Assembly (NCBI RefSeq): GCF_025717065.2
Contig: NZ_JAOVZO020000014.1
Location: 124,001 to 188,000 of the forward strand
Direction: 5' to 3'
Source of the DNA: Tahibacter soli
GTDB lineage: Bacteria; Pseudomonadota; Gammaproteobacteria; Xanthomonadales; Rhodanobacteraceae
DNA length: 64,000 nt
Position numbers and translations under genes: made by a program. The notes beneath the pieces are model-generated. The model did no database searches. It was not told where the DNA came from and saw only the letters and a program-made list of their open reading frames with translations. Every line of letters starts with the position of its first letter. The stretch's first letter is position 1. Positions 52,758 to 62,928 of the stretch are shown in pieces.

Positions 52758-54518
52758 CTACCGGAAAAGCAGATTTTCCGGCGCCGGCGTGACGGTCTGG
52801 AAGATCCAGCCCGCGCCGCCGGCCGTGGCGTTCACCACGGTGCCGGGAATGTTGTTGCCGCCGTTGCCGCCATTGCCGCCCGACGCGCCGCCGCCGCCGC
52901 CGCTCAGGAACGCGCCGGTGGACGGGATGTCGGTGCCGGCGAGGCCGCCGTTGGTCTGCAACGTGCCGGTATTGCTGACCGACGCCGTGGAGATCAGATG
53001 CACGATACCGCCGCCGCCACCGCCGCCGCCGCCGGGGCCGGTCGAATTGGTGGTGTTGCCGTTGACGCCGTTCGCGCCGTTGCCGCCGTTCGCACGGATC
53101 GTGCCGCCGACCGCGAGCGAGCCCTTGGCGGCCACGATCACCACGCCGCCCGCGCCGCCGCCGCCGCCGGCCGCATCGGTCGTCGTCGTCGCATTGACGC
53201 CGTTGGTGCCGCTCGCGCTGATCAGTCCACCGCTGGGCAGCGAGAAATTGCCGTTCGCGGCGATGAGGAGGCTGCCGCCGCCGTCGCCGCCGCTGTGGGT
53301 CGCCGACGCGGTATTCGCCAGGCGTTCGCCGGCGCCGCCGGCCGCGAACGGCGCGCCGCGCAGTTGCAGCGCCTGCGCGCGCGCAAGACCCACGCCGCCG
53401 GTCGGCTGGCCCGGCGCCCCGAGCGAAATGCCGGGATTGGGCATGCCGGCGCCGCTGTCGGTCGCGCCCGGCAGCACCGAGATCGTGCCCGTGATCGTGA
53501 CGTTGCCGGTGGCGCGCAGCACGGTGCCGCTCGGCACGATCAGCGTGCCGCCGATCGTGATCGACGTGAACTGCATCGTGGTCTGACCTGCGCTCACGAG
53601 CGCGTTCCAGCCCGTGGTCGAAGTGATGTCGAGCGTCGAGCCGTTCGCGACGTTCAGCGCGCCGCTGCTGCCGTCGCCGTAGGCGCCCGCCGCGCCGGCG
53701 GGGCCTTGCGGTCCGGTTGCGCCCGTCGCACCGGTCGTCCCCGTCCCCGTGGCGCCGGTGGGACCCGTGGCGCCGGTCGGACCCGCCGCACCGGTCGGTC
53801 CCGTTGCGCCGGTGTTTCCCTGCGTACCGGTCGCGCCGTTGTTGCCCTGCGCGCCGGCGGGACCCGTGGGGCCCGTCGCGCCCAGGCCGCCGGTCGGGCC
53901 GGTGGCGCCGGTCGCGCCGCTCGGTCCGGTCGCGCCCGTAGCGCCCGTGGCACCGGTCGGTCCCGTCGGGCCGGTAGCGCCCGTGGCACCGGTCGGTCCC
54001 GTCGCGCCGGTCGGTCCTGCGACGCCGGCATCGCCCTGGGCGCCGGTCGCGCCCGTCGGCCCCGTCGCACCGGTCGGCCCGATGGCGCCGGTCGGTCCGG
54101 CTGCGCCGGCGGGTCCGGTCGCGCCGGTGGCGCCCGTCGCGCCCGGATTGCCGCTCAACGCGTACTGCGCGACCGGTGCCGCGGCGACCGGCTGGCGCGG
54201 GGCCAGCACCTGGCCGTTGACGGTGATTTCCAGCCAGCGCTGCTGGCCGTTGAACGCGCCCGCGAACGGCAGGTCGATCGTGAACAGGCCGTCGAGTACC
54301 GGATACGCGTTCGCGTCGTACGCGCTGCCGATCTGCAGTCCGCCGGTCGCGGCGTCGAACAGCGCGAAGTGCAGATTGCGCGTACCGGTGACCGGCTCTC
54401 CGTCGTGCTTCAACTGGCCCTGGTACGTGAAGTTCTGCGACTGCGGCGCGGCATGCGCATTGGCGACGGCAAGCGCGCCGCAGACGAGTACGGACAACAG
54501 GCGGCGGCGTGCCGTCAT
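52758..54518 (-). CDS. Secreted collagen-like protein
   Basis: A 586-residue exported protein. The ATG overlaps the stop of the upstream small gene (ATGA). After the signal peptide ([23 protein letters not shown]) comes a beta domain of about 95 residues ([18 protein letters not shown], as in collagen-like phage and bacterial proteins). About 45 uninterrupted Gly-X-Y triplets follow, mostly GAT and GPT, then a two-residue break and about seven more. The C-terminal half is Ser/Thr/Gly-rich, repetitive beta-helix-like sequence with Gly runs (GGGGGAGG and GGNGGNGGNN). A triple-helical stalk with a globular or beta-helical tip at the cell surface is inferred. There is no anchor or sortase motif. 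Confidence 0.82.
53685..54157 (-). repeat. Gly-X-Y coding repeat tract
   Basis: Nine-base and eighteen-base near repeats coding for GATGPT-type triplets. The DNA copies are diverged at third positions but similar enough for slippage or recombination to change length between strains. Confidence 0.8.
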
Positions 54519-54820
54519 GGCGTTTCCCCTTCGAAACCGTTGCGGAAGATCGTGTCGGAGACGAGCGGCGCGGCCACCCAGAATCCCGACACCAGTTGGT
54601 AGTCGGCGCTGCCCGAATAGCCGGGCGCCGGCTGGCCGATCGTGCCGTCGAGCCGCGTCGCGCCGGCTTGCGACGTGCCGCCGCCGCCGTGGACGGCGTA
54701 CCAGTCGATCGCGTAGTCGGCCGTCGCGTTCGACGCGGCGCCGAGCGTCAGCAGCGCGCCGAGCACGCGCAGGCGCGCGCTCGCGGCGACGCTGCGCCGT
54801 GGTGGCGTGTGGATGTGCAC
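54515..54820 (-). CDS. Small exported protein with IFRNGFE tail
   Basis: A 101-residue protein beginning at GTG 54820 after GGGGGGAC. A basic N-terminus and [18 protein letters not shown] form a signal peptide. The mature part ([33 protein letters not shown], then [14 protein letters not shown]) matches the short conserved segment often found at the start of larger exported proteins of this group. It ends [13 protein letters not shown]. It is translated together with the collagen-like protein. It may be a stand-alone carrier of the tail signal or a companion of the collagen-like protein. Confidence 0.75.
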
Positions 54821-55368
54821 GGATTGTCCCCCCTGATGGGTTGCCGCCGTTGCGCCTCATGCGCACGTCGGCGTATCGAAGGGTAGCGCAAAACAGCGGC
54901 GGTTCCTGTCGCATTCCGTGCCGGATATGGCCGTGAGCGAACCTGCGTTACGGGCAACGACCGGCGCGGGGCCGGTGCATTCACGTAGTACGGGGTCGCA
55001 AAGCGCAGGCCTTGCGCGAGGGGCGACGCGATGCCGGTCGAACGCGAAAGCGGTGCGCGTGTGCCTGAACGGCACGACGGGCTCGCGTACCGCGCGAGCG
55101 CGCGCAACGTGCGGTTCCGCGGCTGGGCCGCCGGTCGGATAGACCGCGGCGCCGCCCGGCCCGGCGGTCAGACGCCGGGCTCCTGTTGCCTTCAACGACG
55201 CGGATCGCACGGCCGCCGACGGCCGTGCCGTCGCGTGCGCGTTTGTCGTGTCGAAATCCGAGTAGTTTCCACAGACGGTGCGCGTTTGTTCGAAAAGTGC
55301 GAACTGCGCAACGTTTCAAGGTGCAACACGAGAATAATTCCAATATCCCAAAACCGCTCGGGGGTTTC
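54821..55368. other. Intergenic region between divergent genes
   Basis: About 550 bases with no supportable gene; the open frames are Arg/Ala/Pro-rich shadows. It must contain the promoters of the small tail protein and of the TonB receptor. A hairpin (55207-55228) and an AT-richer stretch before the receptor (about 55328-55352) are the only notable features. Confidence 0.55.
55207..55228. promoter_or_regulatory. Hairpin in the leader region of the TonB receptor
   Basis: GCACGGCCG and CGGCCGTGC pair perfectly around CCGA, about 140 bases upstream of the receptor start. There is no T-run. It could be an operator, an attenuating structure or chance in GC-rich DNA. Confidence 0.35.
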
Positions 55369-57762: not shown

Positions 57763-58962
57763 TCAGACCCCGTCGCCCGGCGGCGCCCCGGCATACCGCG
57801 CGCGCGGCCGGATCAGCCGGCCCTGTTCCTGCTGCTCGAGCGCGTGCGCGAGCCAGCCGGCGAGGCGGCCCGCGGCGAACAGCACGAGTGCCGCGCCGGC
57901 GGACAGCGCATACAGGCGGCCGATCGCGCCGAGCGCGAGGTCGAGATTCGGCTTGAGCCCGCTGGCCGCCTCGGCGCGTGCGATCAGCGCGTCGAGATCG
58001 CGCAGCGCCGCCGAGCCCGCGTGCCGCTCGCGCAGCATCGCGAGCAGTTCCGCGGCGCGGGGGTCGCCGTGCGGATACAACGCGTGGCCGAAGCCGGGCA
58101 GGTCGTCGCCGCGGTCCCAGCGCGCGGCGACGTCGTCCGCGCCGGCACCGATCAGCGCGTACGTACGCGCCGTGGCGCCGCCGTGGCGCGGGCCGGTCAT
58201 CGCCGCGAGGCCGGTCGCGACCGTCGCGTGCAGATGCGCGCCGGTCGACGCGACCACGCGCGCGGCGAACGCCGACACGTTGAGTTCGTGCTCGGCCGAC
58301 AGCACGAGCGCGGCGCGCACGACGTCGGCGAAACCGGCGTCGCCGGGACGCCACGCATCGGCGATCTGACGATGCACCGGCGCGACGCCGGGCAGGCCGC
58401 TGGTCAGCAGCGCCGCGTTCTGGCGCACGAGCCGCGCGGCGATCTCGCGCCGCACGTGCGGCGACAGGTTGAACGAGTGGCGCTCGGCCACGCCGAGCAG
58501 CGGTATCGCCGCGAGCGCGCGTTCGAGCGGCGGCAGCGTCGCGTCGGCCGCGACCGCCGCCACCGCCGCGGGCCACGCACTCGGCGGCGGCGTAGCGAAC
58601 GGGTCGGCCTCGGCGCATTCCCACAATCGGCGCGCGACGTCTTCGAGCGTTGCGCCGGCCCGCGCCGCCTCGACCGCCGAGGCGCCGCGATAGTACGGAC
58701 CGTCCGGCAGGATCTGCGAGATCCGCGTTTCGAGTACCGGCAGGCCGCGATCGAGGCTTTGCGCCGCGCCGCGCGCGGCGCCGCGGCCGACACGGCGGTT
58801 CTGCGCGAGCCGTTCGATGTCGGCGCGCCGATAGCCGCGCGTGCGCCGGTCCGGACCCGGCCGCGATTCGACGAGTCCGCGGCTGACGTAGGCGTACAGC
58901 GTCTGCAGATTGACGCCGAGAATGCGGCACGCCTCGGCGGCCGGGATCAGGTCGGGATCCAT
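57763..58962 (-). CDS. Citrate synthase-family protein fused to a MerR-like DNA-binding domain
   Basis: A 399-residue fusion. Residues 1-55 (LIPAAEACRILGVNLQTLYAYVSRGLVESR, then RGYRRADIERLAQ) form a MerR/excisionase-type winged helix. The rest is a complete citrate/2-methylcitrate synthase fold: SAEHELNVSAFAARVVAST, His260 in GPRHGGA, His293 in GFGHALYPHGDPRA, Asp341 in KPNLDLALGAIG and the end AGWLAHALEQ...RPRARY. The catalytic His-His-Asp set is kept, so it may condense acyl-CoA with oxaloacetate, bind these ligands as a sensor, or both. The ATG at 58962 lies 10 bases from a palindromic site. It is divergent from acnD-prpF, taking the place where prpR or prpC is expected. A dual enzyme-regulator is inferred. 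Confidence 0.85.
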   Translation of the reverse strand: MDPDLIPAAEACRILGVNLQTLYAYVSRGLVESRPGPDRRTRGYRRADIERLAQNRRVGRGAARGAAQSLDRGLPVLETRISQILPDGPYYRGASAVEAARAGATLEDVARRLWECAEADPFATPPPSAWPAAVAAVAADATLPPLERALAAIPLLGVAERHSFNLSPHVRREIAARLVRQNAALLTSGLPGVAPVHRQIADAWRPGDAGFADVVRAALVLSAEHELNVSAFAARVVASTGAHLHATVATGLAAMTGPRHGGATARTYALIGAGADDVAARWDRGDDLPGFGHALYPHGDPRAAELLAMLRERHAGSAALRDLDALIARAEAASGLKPNLDLALGAIGRLYALSAGAALVLFAAGRLAGWLAHALEQQEQGRLIRPRARYAGAPPGDGV

Positions 58963-58971
58963 GCCGATATG

Positions 58972-58998
58972 TTGATCGAGTCGATCAAGATTGATCAA
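58972..58998. promoter_or_regulatory. Operator with nested TTGATC palindromes between citrate synthase-HTH and acnD
   Basis: TTGATCGA-G-TCGATCAA (58972-58988) is a perfect 8-1-8 palindrome, followed two bases on by a second palindrome TTGATCAA (58991-58998). The site lies 10 bases before the leftward start and 93 bases before acnD. The adjacent DNA-binding citrate synthase is the obvious candidate to bind it. Confidence 0.7.
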
Positions 58999-59090
58999 TG
59001 CGTTCGAGGATGCCAGATTGCGCGCCAGAACGCGCGGCCGGATGCTTCCCGTGCCGCCGTGGCCCGCCACCTCGCACAATCGAGCCAGCC

Positions 59091-61685
59091 ATGAATACCG
59101 CCCATCGCAAGCCGCTGCCCGGAACCTCCCTCGACTGGTTCGACGCGCGCGCCGCCGTCGACGCGATCAAGCCCGGCGCCTACGCCGGCCTGCCGTACAC
59201 CTCGCGCGTGCACGCCGAAAACCTCGTGCGCCGTTGCGATCCGGCGCTCTTGACCGACGCGCTCGTGCAATTGATCGAGCGCCGCCGCGATCTCGACTTT
59301 CCGTGGTTTCCGGCGCGCGTGGTGTGCCACGACATTCTCGGCCAGACCGCGCTGGTCGATCTCGCCGGACTGCGCGACGCGATCGCCGACAAGGGCGGCG
59401 ATCCGGCGCTGATCAACCCGGTGGTGCCGACGCAGCTGATCGTCGACCACTCGCTCGCCGTCGAATACGGCGGCTACGACAAGAACGCGTTCGCGAAGAA
59501 CCGCGCGGTCGAGGACCGCCGCAACGAAGACCGCTTCCACTTCATCGACTGGACGAAGAAGGCGTTCAAGAACGTCGACGTGATTCCGCCGGGCAACGGC
59601 ATCATGCATCAGATCAATCTCGAGCGGATGTCGCCGGTCGTGCACGCGCAGGACGGCGTGGCGTTTCCCGACACGCTCGTCGGCACCGACAGCCATACGC
59701 CGCACGTCGACGCGCTCGGCGTCATCGCGATCGGCGTCGGCGGCCTCGAAGCCGAAAGCGTGATGCTCGGCCGCGCGTCGTGGATGCGCCTGCCGGACAT
59801 CATCGGCGTCGAACTCACCGGCCGGCCGCAGCCGGGCATCACCGCGACCGACGTCGTGCTCGCGCTGACCGAATTCCTGCGCAAGGAAAAAGTGGTCGGC
59901 GCCTACGTCGAGTTCTACGGCGAAGGCGCGTCCGCGCTGACGCTCGGCGATCGCGCGACGATCTCGAACATGACGCCGGAATTCGGCGCGACCGCCGCGA
60001 TGTTCTACATCGACGGTCAGACCATCGACTACCTGCGCCTGACCGGCCGCGAAGACGCGCAGGTGAAGCTCGTGGAAACCTATGCGAAGGCGGCGGGCCT
60101 GTGGGCCGACGATCTCGCCGCCGCGCAGTACGAGCGCACGCTGTCGTTCGATCTGTCGAGCGTCGTGCGCAACATGGCCGGCCCGTCGAACCCGCACAAG
60201 CGGCTGCCGACGAGCGCGCTCGCCGAGCGCGGCATCGCCGGTGCGTGGGAAGACGTCCCGGGGCAGATGCCCGACGGCGCCGTCATCATCGCCGCGATCA
60301 CGAGCTGCACGAACACGTCGAACCCGCGCAACGTCATCGCCGCGGGCCTGATCGCGCGCAACGCGAACGCGCGCGGCCTGACGCGCCGGCCGTGGGTGAA
60401 ATCGTCGCTCGCGCCGGGCTCCAAGGCCGTGCAGTTGTACCTCGAAGAAGCCGGCCTGCTGCCGGAACTCGAGAAGCTCGGCTTCGGCATCGTCGCGTTC
60501 GCGTGCACGACGTGCAACGGCATGAGCGGCGCGCTCGATCCCGCGATCCAGCAGGAAATCATCGATCGCGACCTCTACGCCACCGCGGTACTGTCGGGCA
60601 ATCGCAATTTCGACGGCCGCATCCATCCGTACGCGAAGCAGGCGTTTCTCGCGTCGCCGCCGCTCGTCGTTGCGTACGCGATCGCCGGCACGGTGCGTTT
60701 CGACATCGAGAAAGACGCACTCGGCCACGACGCCGACGGCAAGCCGGTGACGCTGAAGGACATCTGGCCGAGCGACGCGGAGATCGACGCGATCGTCGCG
60801 AGCAGCGTCAAGCCGGAACATTTCCGCAAAGTGTACGAGCCGATGTTCCGTTTCGCGGCCAGCGGCGGCGGGAAGATCAGCCCCCTGTACGACTGGCGCG
60901 CGCAGAGCACGTATATCCGCCGGCCGCCGTACTGGGAAGGCGCGCTCGCCGGCGAACGCACGCTGACCGGCATGCGTCCGCTCGCGGTGCTCGGCGACAA
61001 CATCACGACCGATCACCTGTCGCCGTCGAACGCGATCCTGCTCGACAGCGCGGCCGGCGAATATCTCGCGCGCATGGGGCTGCCGGAAGAAGACTTCAAC
61101 TCGTACGCGACGCATCGCGGCGACCATCTCACCGCGCAGCGCGCGACGTTCGCGAACCCGAAGCTCGTCAACGAAATGGCCGTCGTCGACGGCCAGGTGA
61201 AGCAGGGCTCGCTCGCGCGCCTGGAACCCGACGGCACCGTCATGCGCATGTGGGAGACGATCGAAACCTACATGGAACGCAAGCAGCCGCTGATCATCGT
61301 CGCCGGCGCCGACTACGGGCAGGGCTCGTCGCGCGACTGGGCGGCCAAGGGCGTGCGGCTCGCCGGCGTGGAGGCGATCGCCGCCGAAGGTTTCGAGCGC
61401 ATCCACCGCACGAACCTCATCGGCATGGGCGTACTGCCGCTCGAGTTCAAGCCGGGCACGAACCGCAAGACGCTCGCGATCGACGGCACCGAAACGTTCG
61501 ATGTGATCGGCACGCGCACGCCGCGCGCCGATCTGACGCTCGTGATCCATCGCCGCGACGGCGAGCGCGTCGAAGTGCCCGTGACGTGCCGGCTCGACAC
61601 CGCCGAGGAAGTGTCGATCTACGAGGCCGGCGGCGTGCTGCAGCGCTTCGCGCAGGATTTTCTCGAGTCGTCGCAGGCGGCCTGA
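59091..61685 (+). CDS. acnD: 2-methylisocitrate dehydratase, Fe/S-dependent (AcnD)
   Basis: An 864-residue aconitase-family enzyme that, with PrpF, dehydrates 2-methylcitrate in the methylcitrate cycle of propionate breakdown. Cluster cysteines lie in ITSCTNTSNP and ACTTCNGMSG. Substrate motifs VGTDSHTPHVDALGV and GADYGQGSSRDWAAKGVRLAG (swivelling domain) are intact. Length matches AcnD (about 865). Neighbour prpF and the absence of AcnA-specific context support AcnD over aconitase. The ATG at 59091 lacks a strong ribosome site; CACAAT a few bases upstream could be a -10 for a near-leaderless transcript. prpB and prpC are not in the window. Confidence 0.9.
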   Translation: MNTAHRKPLPGTSLDWFDARAAVDAIKPGAYAGLPYTSRVHAENLVRRCDPALLTDALVQLIERRRDLDFPWFPARVVCHDILGQTALVDLAGLRDAIADKGGDPALINPVVPTQLIVDHSLAVEYGGYDKNAFAKNRAVEDRRNEDRFHFIDWTKKAFKNVDVIPPGNGIMHQINLERMSPVVHAQDGVAFPDTLVGTDSHTPHVDALGVIAIGVGGLEAESVMLGRASWMRLPDIIGVELTGRPQPGITATDVVLALTEFLRKEKVVGAYVEFYGEGASALTLGDRATISNMTPEFGATAAMFYIDGQTIDYLRLTGREDAQVKLVETYAKAAGLWADDLAAAQYERTLSFDLSSVVRNMAGPSNPHKRLPTSALAERGIAGAWEDVPGQMPDGAVIIAAITSCTNTSNPRNVIAAGLIARNANARGLTRRPWVKSSLAPGSKAVQLYLEEAGLLPELEKLGFGIVAFACTTCNGMSGALDPAIQQEIIDRDLYATAVLSGNRNFDGRIHPYAKQAFLASPPLVVAYAIAGTVRFDIEKDALGHDADGKPVTLKDIWPSDAEIDAIVASSVKPEHFRKVYEPMFRFAASGGGKISPLYDWRAQSTYIRRPPYWEGALAGERTLTGMRPLAVLGDNITTDHLSPSNAILLDSAAGEYLARMGLPEEDFNSYATHRGDHLTAQRATFANPKLVNEMAVVDGQVKQGSLARLEPDGTVMRMWETIETYMERKQPLIIVAGADYGQGSSRDWAAKGVRLAGVEAIAAEGFERIHRTNLIGMGVLPLEFKPGTNRKTLAIDGTETFDVIGTRTPRADLTLVIHRRDGERVEVPVTCRLDTAEEVSIYEAGGVLQRFAQDFLESSQAA

Positions 61686-61728
61686 GCCGCGCGACGCCGC
61701 ACCGCATTACAGAATGGAATAGTTACGT

Positions 61729-62928
61729 ATGCCGCATCTGCCGCAAATCCGCATTCCCGCCACGTATATGCGCGGCGGCACCAGCAAGGGCGTATTCTTT
61801 TGCCTCGCCGACCTGCCCGAAGCGGCGCAGGTACCCGGCGCCGCGCGCGACCGGCTGCTGCTGCGCGTGATCGGCAGCCCCGATCCGTACGGCAAGCAGA
61901 CCGACGGCATGGGCGGCGGGACGTCGAGCACGAGCAAGGTCGTGATTCTGTCCGCGAGCACGCGGCCCGGTCACGACGTCGACTACCTGTTCGGCCAGGT
62001 GGCGATCGACCGCGCGTTCGTCGACTGGAGCGGCAACTGCGGCAATCTGACGGCGGCGGTCGGTTCGTTCGCGATCTCGAACGGCCTCGTCGACGCCGCG
62101 CGCATTCCGCGCGACGGCCTCTGCACGGTACGGATCTGGCAGGCGCAGATCGGCAAGACGATCGTCGCGCACGTGCCGATGACGGACGGGCAGGTGCAGG
62201 AAACCGGCGACTTCGAACTCGACGGCGTGACGTTTCCGGCGGCCGAGGTCGCGATCGAATTTCTCGATCCGGCCGACGTGGGCGAGGACGGCGGCGCGAT
62301 GTTTCCGACCGGCAACCTCGTCGACGACCTCGACGTGCCCGGCGTCGGCACGCTGAAGGCCACGCTGATCAACGCCGGCATTCCGACGATCTTCGTCGAC
62401 GCCGCCGCGGTCGGCTACACCGGCACCGAGCTGCAGGGCGCGATCAACGAAGACGCGAAAGCGCTCGCGATGTTCGAGACGATTCGCGCGCACGGCGCGG
62501 TGCGCATGGGGCTGATCCGCGACGTCGCGGAAGCGGCCAGCCGGCAGCACACGCCGAAGGTGGCGTTCGTCGCGAAACCGGCGACGTATACCGCGTCGAG
62601 CGGCAAGGTCGTCGATGCCGGCGAGATCGATCTCGTCGTGCGCGCGCTGTCGATGGGCAAGCTGCACCACGCGATGATGGGTACGGCCGCCGTCGCGATC
62701 GGCACGGCCGCGGCGGTGCCCGGCACGCTCGTCAATCTCGCGGCCGGCGGCGGCGAGCGCAGCGCGGTGCGCTTCGGTCACCCGTCCGGCACCTTGCGCG
62801 TCGGCGCCGAGGCGAAGCAGGTGGACGGGCAGTGGACCGTCACGCGCGCGCTGATGAGCCGCAGCGCGCGCGTGCTGATGGAAGGCCACGTGCGCGTGCC
62901 GGGCGGCGTGCTCGAAGCCGACGCGTAG
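61729..62928 (+). CDS. prpF: 2-methylaconitate isomerase PrpF
   Basis: A 399-residue isomerase of the diaminopimelate-epimerase-like fold. It converts the trans-2-methylaconitate made by AcnD to the cis isomer, allowing the methylcitrate cycle to continue. Active-site segments STSKVVIL (Lys70) and GNCGNLTAAVG (Cys104) are present, as is the start IPATYMRGGTSKGVFF. It lies 43 bases downstream of acnD in the same direction, forming an operon typical of bacteria that use AcnD in place of PrpD. Confidence 0.92.
   Translation: MPHLPQIRIPATYMRGGTSKGVFFCLADLPEAAQVPGAARDRLLLRVIGSPDPYGKQTDGMGGGTSSTSKVVILSASTRPGHDVDYLFGQVAIDRAFVDWSGNCGNLTAAVGSFAISNGLVDAARIPRDGLCTVRIWQAQIGKTIVAHVPMTDGQVQETGDFELDGVTFPAAEVAIEFLDPADVGEDGGAMFPTGNLVDDLDVPGVGTLKATLINAGIPTIFVDAAAVGYTGTELQGAINEDAKALAMFETIRAHGAVRMGLIRDVAEAASRQHTPKVAFVAKPATYTASSGKVVDAGEIDLVVRALSMGKLHHAMMGTAAVAIGTAAAVPGTLVNLAAGGGERSAVRFGHPSGTLRVGAEAKQVDGQWTVTRALMSRSARVLMEGHVRVPGGVLEADA

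Follow-up and report, generated by a model that had tools for sequence, protein, structure and literature searches.

A citrate synthase-like protein with a MerR-type helix-turn-helix as a candidate regulator of methylcitrate-cycle genes

Introduction

Is a citrate synthase that carries a DNA-binding domain an enzyme, a regulator, or both? The question is raised by a gene located in the window, which is the whole stretch of 64 kb of DNA that was analysed. The encoded protein, referred to here as HTH-CS (HTH-citrate synthase), combines an N-terminal helix-turn-helix (HTH) with a citrate synthase (CS) domain, and its gene lies opposite the methylcitrate-cycle genes acnD and prpF (Table 1). Two kinds of known regulators are relevant to this arrangement: the propionate regulators PrpR, which are of the Fis/sigma-54 type, and DNA-binding trigger enzymes with demonstrated catalysis, such as PutA and BirA. 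The initial annotation suggested that HTH-CS is a trigger enzyme, in which the metabolic enzyme is itself the transcription factor. Here, we examine this proposal by comparing the protein, its DNA site and its neighbours across genomes.

Table 1 Features of the HTH-CS/acnD-prpF locus, in window coordinates
Feature	Position	Strand	Basis or assignment
HTH-CS gene, 399 aa from ATG	57763..58962	-	proposed autoregulated transcription factor
Winged HTH, residues 1-59 of HTH-CS	58786..58962	-	Pfam and AF2 model
Citrate synthase domain, residues ~72-387 of HTH-CS	57802..58749	-	Pfam, conserved residues, Foldseek
Putative operator TTGAT-N7-ATCAAGATTGATCAA, inverted repeat and third half-site	58972..58998	.	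comparative conservation, shuffles
Putative -35 of acnD promoter, TTGATC, within third half-site	58991..58996	+	inferred
Putative -10, CAGATT, 17 bp past -35	59014..59019	+	inferred
acnD, Fe/S-dependent 2-methylisocitrate dehydratase	59091..61685	+	TIGR02333
prpF, 2-methylaconitate cis-trans isomerase	61729..62928	+	TIGR02334

Results

Domain structure of HTH-CS

The likely start of HTH-CS is the ATG at position 58962; with the TTG at 59079 given by the ORF tool, the frame would cross the operator. Numbered from the ATG, the protein contains a complete CS domain (Citrate_synt, PF00285; 7.5e-54, 183.5 bits against a cut-off of 27) with His260, His293 and Asp341 in place, in agreement with the initial annotation. 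The MerR-like HTH that had been recognized at the N-terminus was recovered as well: MerR_1 scored 22.8 bits, above its cut-off of 21.6, and the AlphaFold2 (AF2) model contains a winged HTH, so that the domain qualifies as a MerR-type winged HTH. Two related profiles remained below their cut-offs, namely PF00376 (18.2 bits, cut-off 28.2) and, marginally, HTH_17 (26.6 bits, cut-off 27). The model, which was built on an alignment of 43 sequences and has a mean pLDDT of 88.2, places helices at residues 8-15 and 19-27, wing strands at 33-35 and 42-45 and a further helix at 46-59, and joins this domain to a CS fold; residues 58-75 have a pLDDT below 50. According to Foldseek, the closest PDB structures are methylcitrate and citrate synthases, with 3hwk in first place (E 1.2e-14) and 3tqg and 3o8j among the other top matches.

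HTH-CS thus has the fold and the catalytic triad of PrpC and GltA (PF00285), but differs from them by its additional winged HTH and by failing every curated synthase cut-off. None of the 22 NCBIfam models listed for the protein reached its threshold, the top scores being those of NF009005 (124.3 bits, cut-off 332) and PRK12351 (102.7 bits, cut-off 550). NCBI annotates homologues as "citrate synthase" or "citrate synthase family protein". In the protein search, the HTH segment TLYAYVSRG was unchanged in all 16 sequences, i.e. HTH-CS itself and 15 relatives. As the same peptide served to search for the named loci described below (the best 80 of 580 confirmed matches), its invariance among those is partly a result of selection.

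A putative operator between HTH-CS and acnD

The 128 bp that separate HTH-CS from acnD contain the palindrome TTGAT-N7-ATCAA, whose presence had been pointed out at the outset and was confirmed: it is found once in the 64 kb and in none of 100 dinucleotide-preserving shuffles. The same is true of the longer putative operator, TTGAT-N7-ATCAAGATTGATCAA (once in the window; 0/100 shuffles). A chance palindrome was rejected on the basis of these shuffles and of the co-occurrence statistics given below. One full site was seen in the host genome, so the HTH-CS regulon would be very small there. A wider host regulon was also considered and rejected, the four further sites with up to two mismatches being set aside as all of them lack the first half-site.

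The third half-site contains the hexamer TTGATC, and in most clade A sequences (see below) a hexamer resembling CAGATT lies 17 bp further on. These hexamers might be the -35 and -10 elements of acnD, in which case the operator would cover the -35, but the assignment is weak because a strict sigma-70 scan of 58900-59130 returned 0 promoters. Operators of the MerR family are located within a lengthened promoter spacer of 19-20 bp; the putative acnD promoter has a 17-bp spacer and a -35 that the operator overlaps. As the operator covers this putative -35, repression appears likelier than activation, and we lean towards HTH-CS being a repressor.

Methylcitrate-cycle genes in the host genome

Both genes facing HTH-CS exceed their equivalog cut-offs (acnD, 1800.8 bits against 1419.85 for TIGR02333; prpF, 753.5 bits against 440.55 for TIGR02334) and lie on the opposite strand, and the divergent arrangement initially described therefore stands. 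Three citrate synthase matches were found in the host genome: GltA, HTH-CS and a bona fide PrpC, which scored 689 bits against an equivalog cut-off of 550. PrpC and GltA share 33-37% identity with HTH-CS in the second half of the protein. The prpC gene belongs to a prpE-prpB-x-x-prpC cluster on a separate contig, C3. At L004 (8831-9960), two proteins of 188 aa separate prpB from prpC, the first of which has no Pfam match.

The initial annotation had also described prpR, prpB and prpC as absent. This holds for the surroundings of HTH-CS but not for the genome as a whole with regard to prpB and prpC, and it follows that HTH-CS is not needed to make methylcitrate. A prpR gene elsewhere in the host genome was rejected, as the profile search for PrpR_N was empty. 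Beside the prpE-prpB-prpC cluster, no regulator gene was recognized when the ORFs were read by eye, and contig C3 does not contain the operator core with up to two mismatches. Since the prp locus has no such copy, only acnD-prpF and the HTH-CS gene itself look controlled in the host.

Gene neighbourhood in other genomes

The surroundings of HTH-CS were examined in 17 relatives, i.e. the 18 genomes that encode HTH-CS minus the host. Methylcitrate genes were found beside it in 16 of the 17: acnD is divergent in all five relatives of the same genus that possess HTH-CS, and prpB is divergent in 11 relatives from other genera or families, in one of which (L038) the two genes are about 1.2 kb apart. 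In G054, a further CS-like gene lies in the divergent position.

Beyond these relatives, the best 80 of 580 confirmed matches were treated as named loci, and these comprise 40 loci of clade A and 40 of clade B. Among them, clade A is mostly made up of Lysobacterales, together with Panacagrimonas, Sinimarinibacterium and one record labelled Eremiobacteraeota. All 40 of these clade A loci have a divergent prpB with a PrpC-like gene behind it, followed in part of them by acnD-prpF. Some entries overlap: L036 is identical to L128, and L040/L133 and L042/L132 seemingly represent the same genomes. In a tree of an 83-row subsample, clade A forms a single branch (100/100 support) in which the acnD-linked HTH-CS genes of the host genus are nested. 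Because acnD-linked genes nest inside a prpB-linked clade, the acnD gene beside the operator is probably what is left of a prpB-prpC-acnD-prpF operon. At L043 (8754-9955; G016), the HTH-CS frame is seemingly broken, and the operator and the divergent prpB are still there.

Clade B, again among the best 80 of 580, consists of alphaproteobacterial sequences and two from Pandoraea, and its divergent gene is another CS-like gene at 35 of 40 loci. A CoA-transferase III gene takes this position at one Pandoraea locus (L142). In the CS-like partners of clade B (L138-L177, within the best 80 of 580), the catalytic Asp is replaced by Glu in 24 of 24 readable sequences; the alignment comprised the 25 of 39 extracted ORFs that have a recognizable motif, 24 of which were readable at the Asp column. 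One partner (L148:6810-7904, minus strand) is located 72 bp from HTH-CS, with the operator in between, and exceeds the PRK12350 cut-off. A different setting is seen in G166 (L196:4368-10073), where an HTH-CS whose catalytic site is broken lies, together with its operator, divergent from genes for a TctC-type receptor, a ThDP enzyme and an aldehyde dehydrogenase.

Co-occurrence of the operator and HTH-CS

Among 61 genomes, the host and 60 relatives, 18 encode HTH-CS. The exact 15-mer core ATCAAGATTGATCAA is found in the same 18, in one copy each, at the HTH-CS gene, and in none of the 43 genomes without HTH-CS; a reversed control pattern was found in none of the 61. The probability of such a match by chance is 8e-16 with genomes taken as independent and 1e-10 by genus, both values being uncorrected for relatedness. 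The near-invariant operator thus accompanies HTH-CS in other genomes, and the adjacency to methylcitrate genes recurs there too, two points that the initial annotation had proposed to check. Together, linkage and operator conservation exclude a random association for the host's group.

Of 369 genomes sampled from the class, 10 contained the 15-mer. Five genomes gave a strong HTH-CS match and all five carry the 15-mer at the gene; four of them were already among the 61, G166 being the only new one, and its first half-site is present with a gap of 6 bp in place of 7. The five 15-mer genomes without HTH-CS all lack the first half-site, and two genomes of this sample with weak HTH-CS matches (G229 and G419, E ~1e-4) have no 15-mer. 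Within the host genus, G001 (95% complete) possesses acnD-prpF, but shows neither an HTH-CS match nor the exact 15-mer, and the 19 kb surrounding its acnD contain no core with up to three mismatches. G007 lacks HTH-CS and prpF alike.

At the named loci (best 80 of 580), the exact core is present at 39/40 loci of clade A and 21/40 of clade B, and the strict form TCAAT[AC]TTGAT-N6..8-ATCAA lies upstream at 38/40 and 37/40, respectively. A relaxed form is found at 78 of these 80 loci, both exceptions being from Pseudovibrio. In the order to which G166 belongs, 11 of 27 loci have the strict form upstream.

A different regulator could in principle bind the palindrome, HTH-CS being a mere neighbour, and the 16 of 27 loci in the order of G166 at which the strict form is missing would be consistent with this. 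Nevertheless, the site stays with HTH-CS while the neighbour changes between acnD, prpB, a CS-like gene, a CoA-transferase and a TctC-type receptor, and neither the relatives without HTH-CS nor the displaced prp locus contain the exact core, which makes this explanation very improbable. The absence of the core from the host prp locus and from G001, and its presence with HTH-CS, indicate that the site follows HTH-CS rather than the prp genes.

Conservation and loss of the catalytic residues

All 94 full-length clade A and B proteins that were compared (the named loci being the best 80 of 580) retain His260, His293 and Asp341, as well as Arg302, Arg366 and Arg385, which presumably have substrate-binding roles. 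These are 94 of 98 proteins, the others being omitted owing to broken frames (L043, L045), a contig end (L044) or a short sequence (L144). Such invariance is not obviously needed by a pure sensor. Together with the methylcitrate synthase that ranks first among the PDB matches, it is what would be expected if HTH-CS were a true trigger enzyme, active as a (methyl)citrate synthase and regulator at once, with turnover as the signal. We nevertheless consider this rather unlikely. Another host gene encodes a PrpC that exceeds the equivalog cut-off, the PrpC-like gene behind prpB is a constant feature of the clade A loci, and HTH-CS stays under the cut-off of all the NCBIfam models listed for it.

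The order of G166 provides further evidence. This order is probably Burkholderiales, as Pandoraea falls among its sequences in the tree. A search of 399 genomes gave HTH-CS in 22 of them, at 27 loci, 26 of which were aligned (L218, short and with E 3e-4, was left out); the query was the broken-site protein of G166, so that the sample leans towards the broken branch and is no fair census. His260 is lost in 11 of the 26 proteins and the Asp in 10, whereas the arginines are mostly kept. The strict operator is retained in spite of the broken site at L197 and L200, which have lost both His260 and Asp341, and at L221, which has lost His260. In the tree of the 83-row subsample, two changes to a broken site are needed, with 10 of the 11 sequences on one branch and L221 on another, although branches are long and the placement is unsure; this too speaks against a trigger enzyme.

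That homologues with broken catalytic sites retain both HTH and operator also bears on a simpler explanation, according to which HTH-CS is no more than a synthase isozyme that clusters with its pathway genes and whose HTH is vestigial. The intact CS domain and catalytic residues and the NCBI labels would agree with it. However, few parts of the protein vary as little as TLYAYVSRG, the operator is conserved, and we regard an ordinary isozyme as extremely unlikely.

With regard to sequence conservation, HTH-CS of L038-L042 is 52-57% identical to that of the host, compared with ~80-82% for PrpC and 63-65% for PrpB. The corresponding values for L033-L037 are 63-67%, 70-73% and 64-68%. HTH-CS is therefore less conserved than PrpC, clearly in the first set and slightly in the second, in which it is about as conserved as PrpB. 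Taken together, conservation and the lost catalytic residues lean towards a sensor domain for which catalysis may be optional. The regulatory half of the trigger enzyme proposal is thus backed by comparison, whereas the enzymatic half is less certain in view of the separate PrpC and of the homologues that lack His260 and keep a strict operator. As homologues without His260 or the Asp retain this operator, "enzyme-derived sensor" seems to describe HTH-CS better than "trigger enzyme".

Discussion

HTH-CS is most likely a transcription factor that uses its CS fold as a sensor and acts at the HTH-CS/acnD operator, putatively by repression that a ligand releases. The comparisons lend good support to its role in controlling both the divergent genes and its own gene; domain make-up, catalytic residues, divergent linkage, conservation and co-occurrence of the operator and the separate prpC, all evident from the sequences, contribute to this picture. 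In the mechanism that we propose, HTH-CS would bind the operator between its own gene and acnD (prpB in relatives) and block RNA polymerase at the divergent promoter and at its own. With propionyl-CoA chemistry under way, a ligand from the methylcitrate cycle, either 2-methylcitrate or oxaloacetate plus propionyl-CoA, would enter the CS pocket and cause a conformational change that releases the promoters, presumably leading to induction. Methylcitrate-cycle metabolites are the obvious candidate ligands for HTH-CS of clade A. Citrate synthases are dimers that close upon substrate binding, and closing dimers would be suited to switching at an inverted repeat in response to a ligand.

More generally, HTH-CS likely represents an unrecognized, widespread family of proteobacterial transcription factors annotated as "citrate synthase". 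The family would combine a CS-fold sensor with one operator from alpha- to gammaproteobacteria, redeployed to methylcitrate, CS-like, CoA-transferase and TctC-type transport operons, with one branch devoid of the catalytic residues. If so, many "citrate synthase" genes would encode regulators and the annotation of central carbon metabolism would have to be corrected. A candidate propionate regulator would be available for Lysobacterales without PrpR, as would a testable case of an enzyme turning into a sensor, in which intact and broken catalytic versions share one DNA site.

A parallel is found in the MocR/PdxR regulators, in which a GntR-type HTH is fused to a whole aminotransferase fold and whose genes are often divergent from a pathway gene. 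HTH-CS resembles them in joining an HTH to a whole enzyme fold, the probable sensor, and in being divergent from a pathway operon, but both its HTH and its enzyme fold are different and it is not a member of that family. Like PutA and BirA, it unites an enzyme part and a DNA-binding part in a single polypeptide, its catalysis being putative. The literature searched contained no description of a regulator of the HTH-citrate synthase type. Suvorova et al. 2012 (J Bacteriol 194:3234) reportedly described new propionate regulators, perhaps including one called PrpQ, and HTH-CS may be among them.

HTH-CS occupies a position where PrpR can sit, although the two architectures are unrelated. Within one genus, the regulators appear to have been swapped: G057 has a PrpR_N protein beside prpB (L195, C84), and G048 has HTH-CS divergent from prpB (L035). 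G011 encodes HTH-CS and a PrpR_N protein together. In the passages of PMC9765439 that concern us here, a GntR-type propionate regulator is reported in Pseudomonas, and all the Xanthomonadales analysed there are said to use a Fis-type PrpR. PrpR_N was found in 2 of 61 genomes (host and 60 relatives), and this statement, as worded in those passages, therefore does not describe the host's group.

In Caulobacter, the citrate synthase CitA acts on CtrA and has a regulatory function that does not depend on its enzymatic activity (PMC7083601, in the passages relevant here). According to the same passages, this organism also has citB and citC (CCNA_03757, CCNA_03758), and CitC failed to complement E. 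coli gltA. CitA and HTH-CS would have in common a CS fold that regulates without a need for catalysis; they differ in that CitA acts on CtrA and that these passages of PMC7083601 describe no DNA-binding domain for it.

Elsewhere in the window, a long reading frame on the minus strand (52758-54914) contains collagen-like Gly-x-y repeats (GATGPTG).
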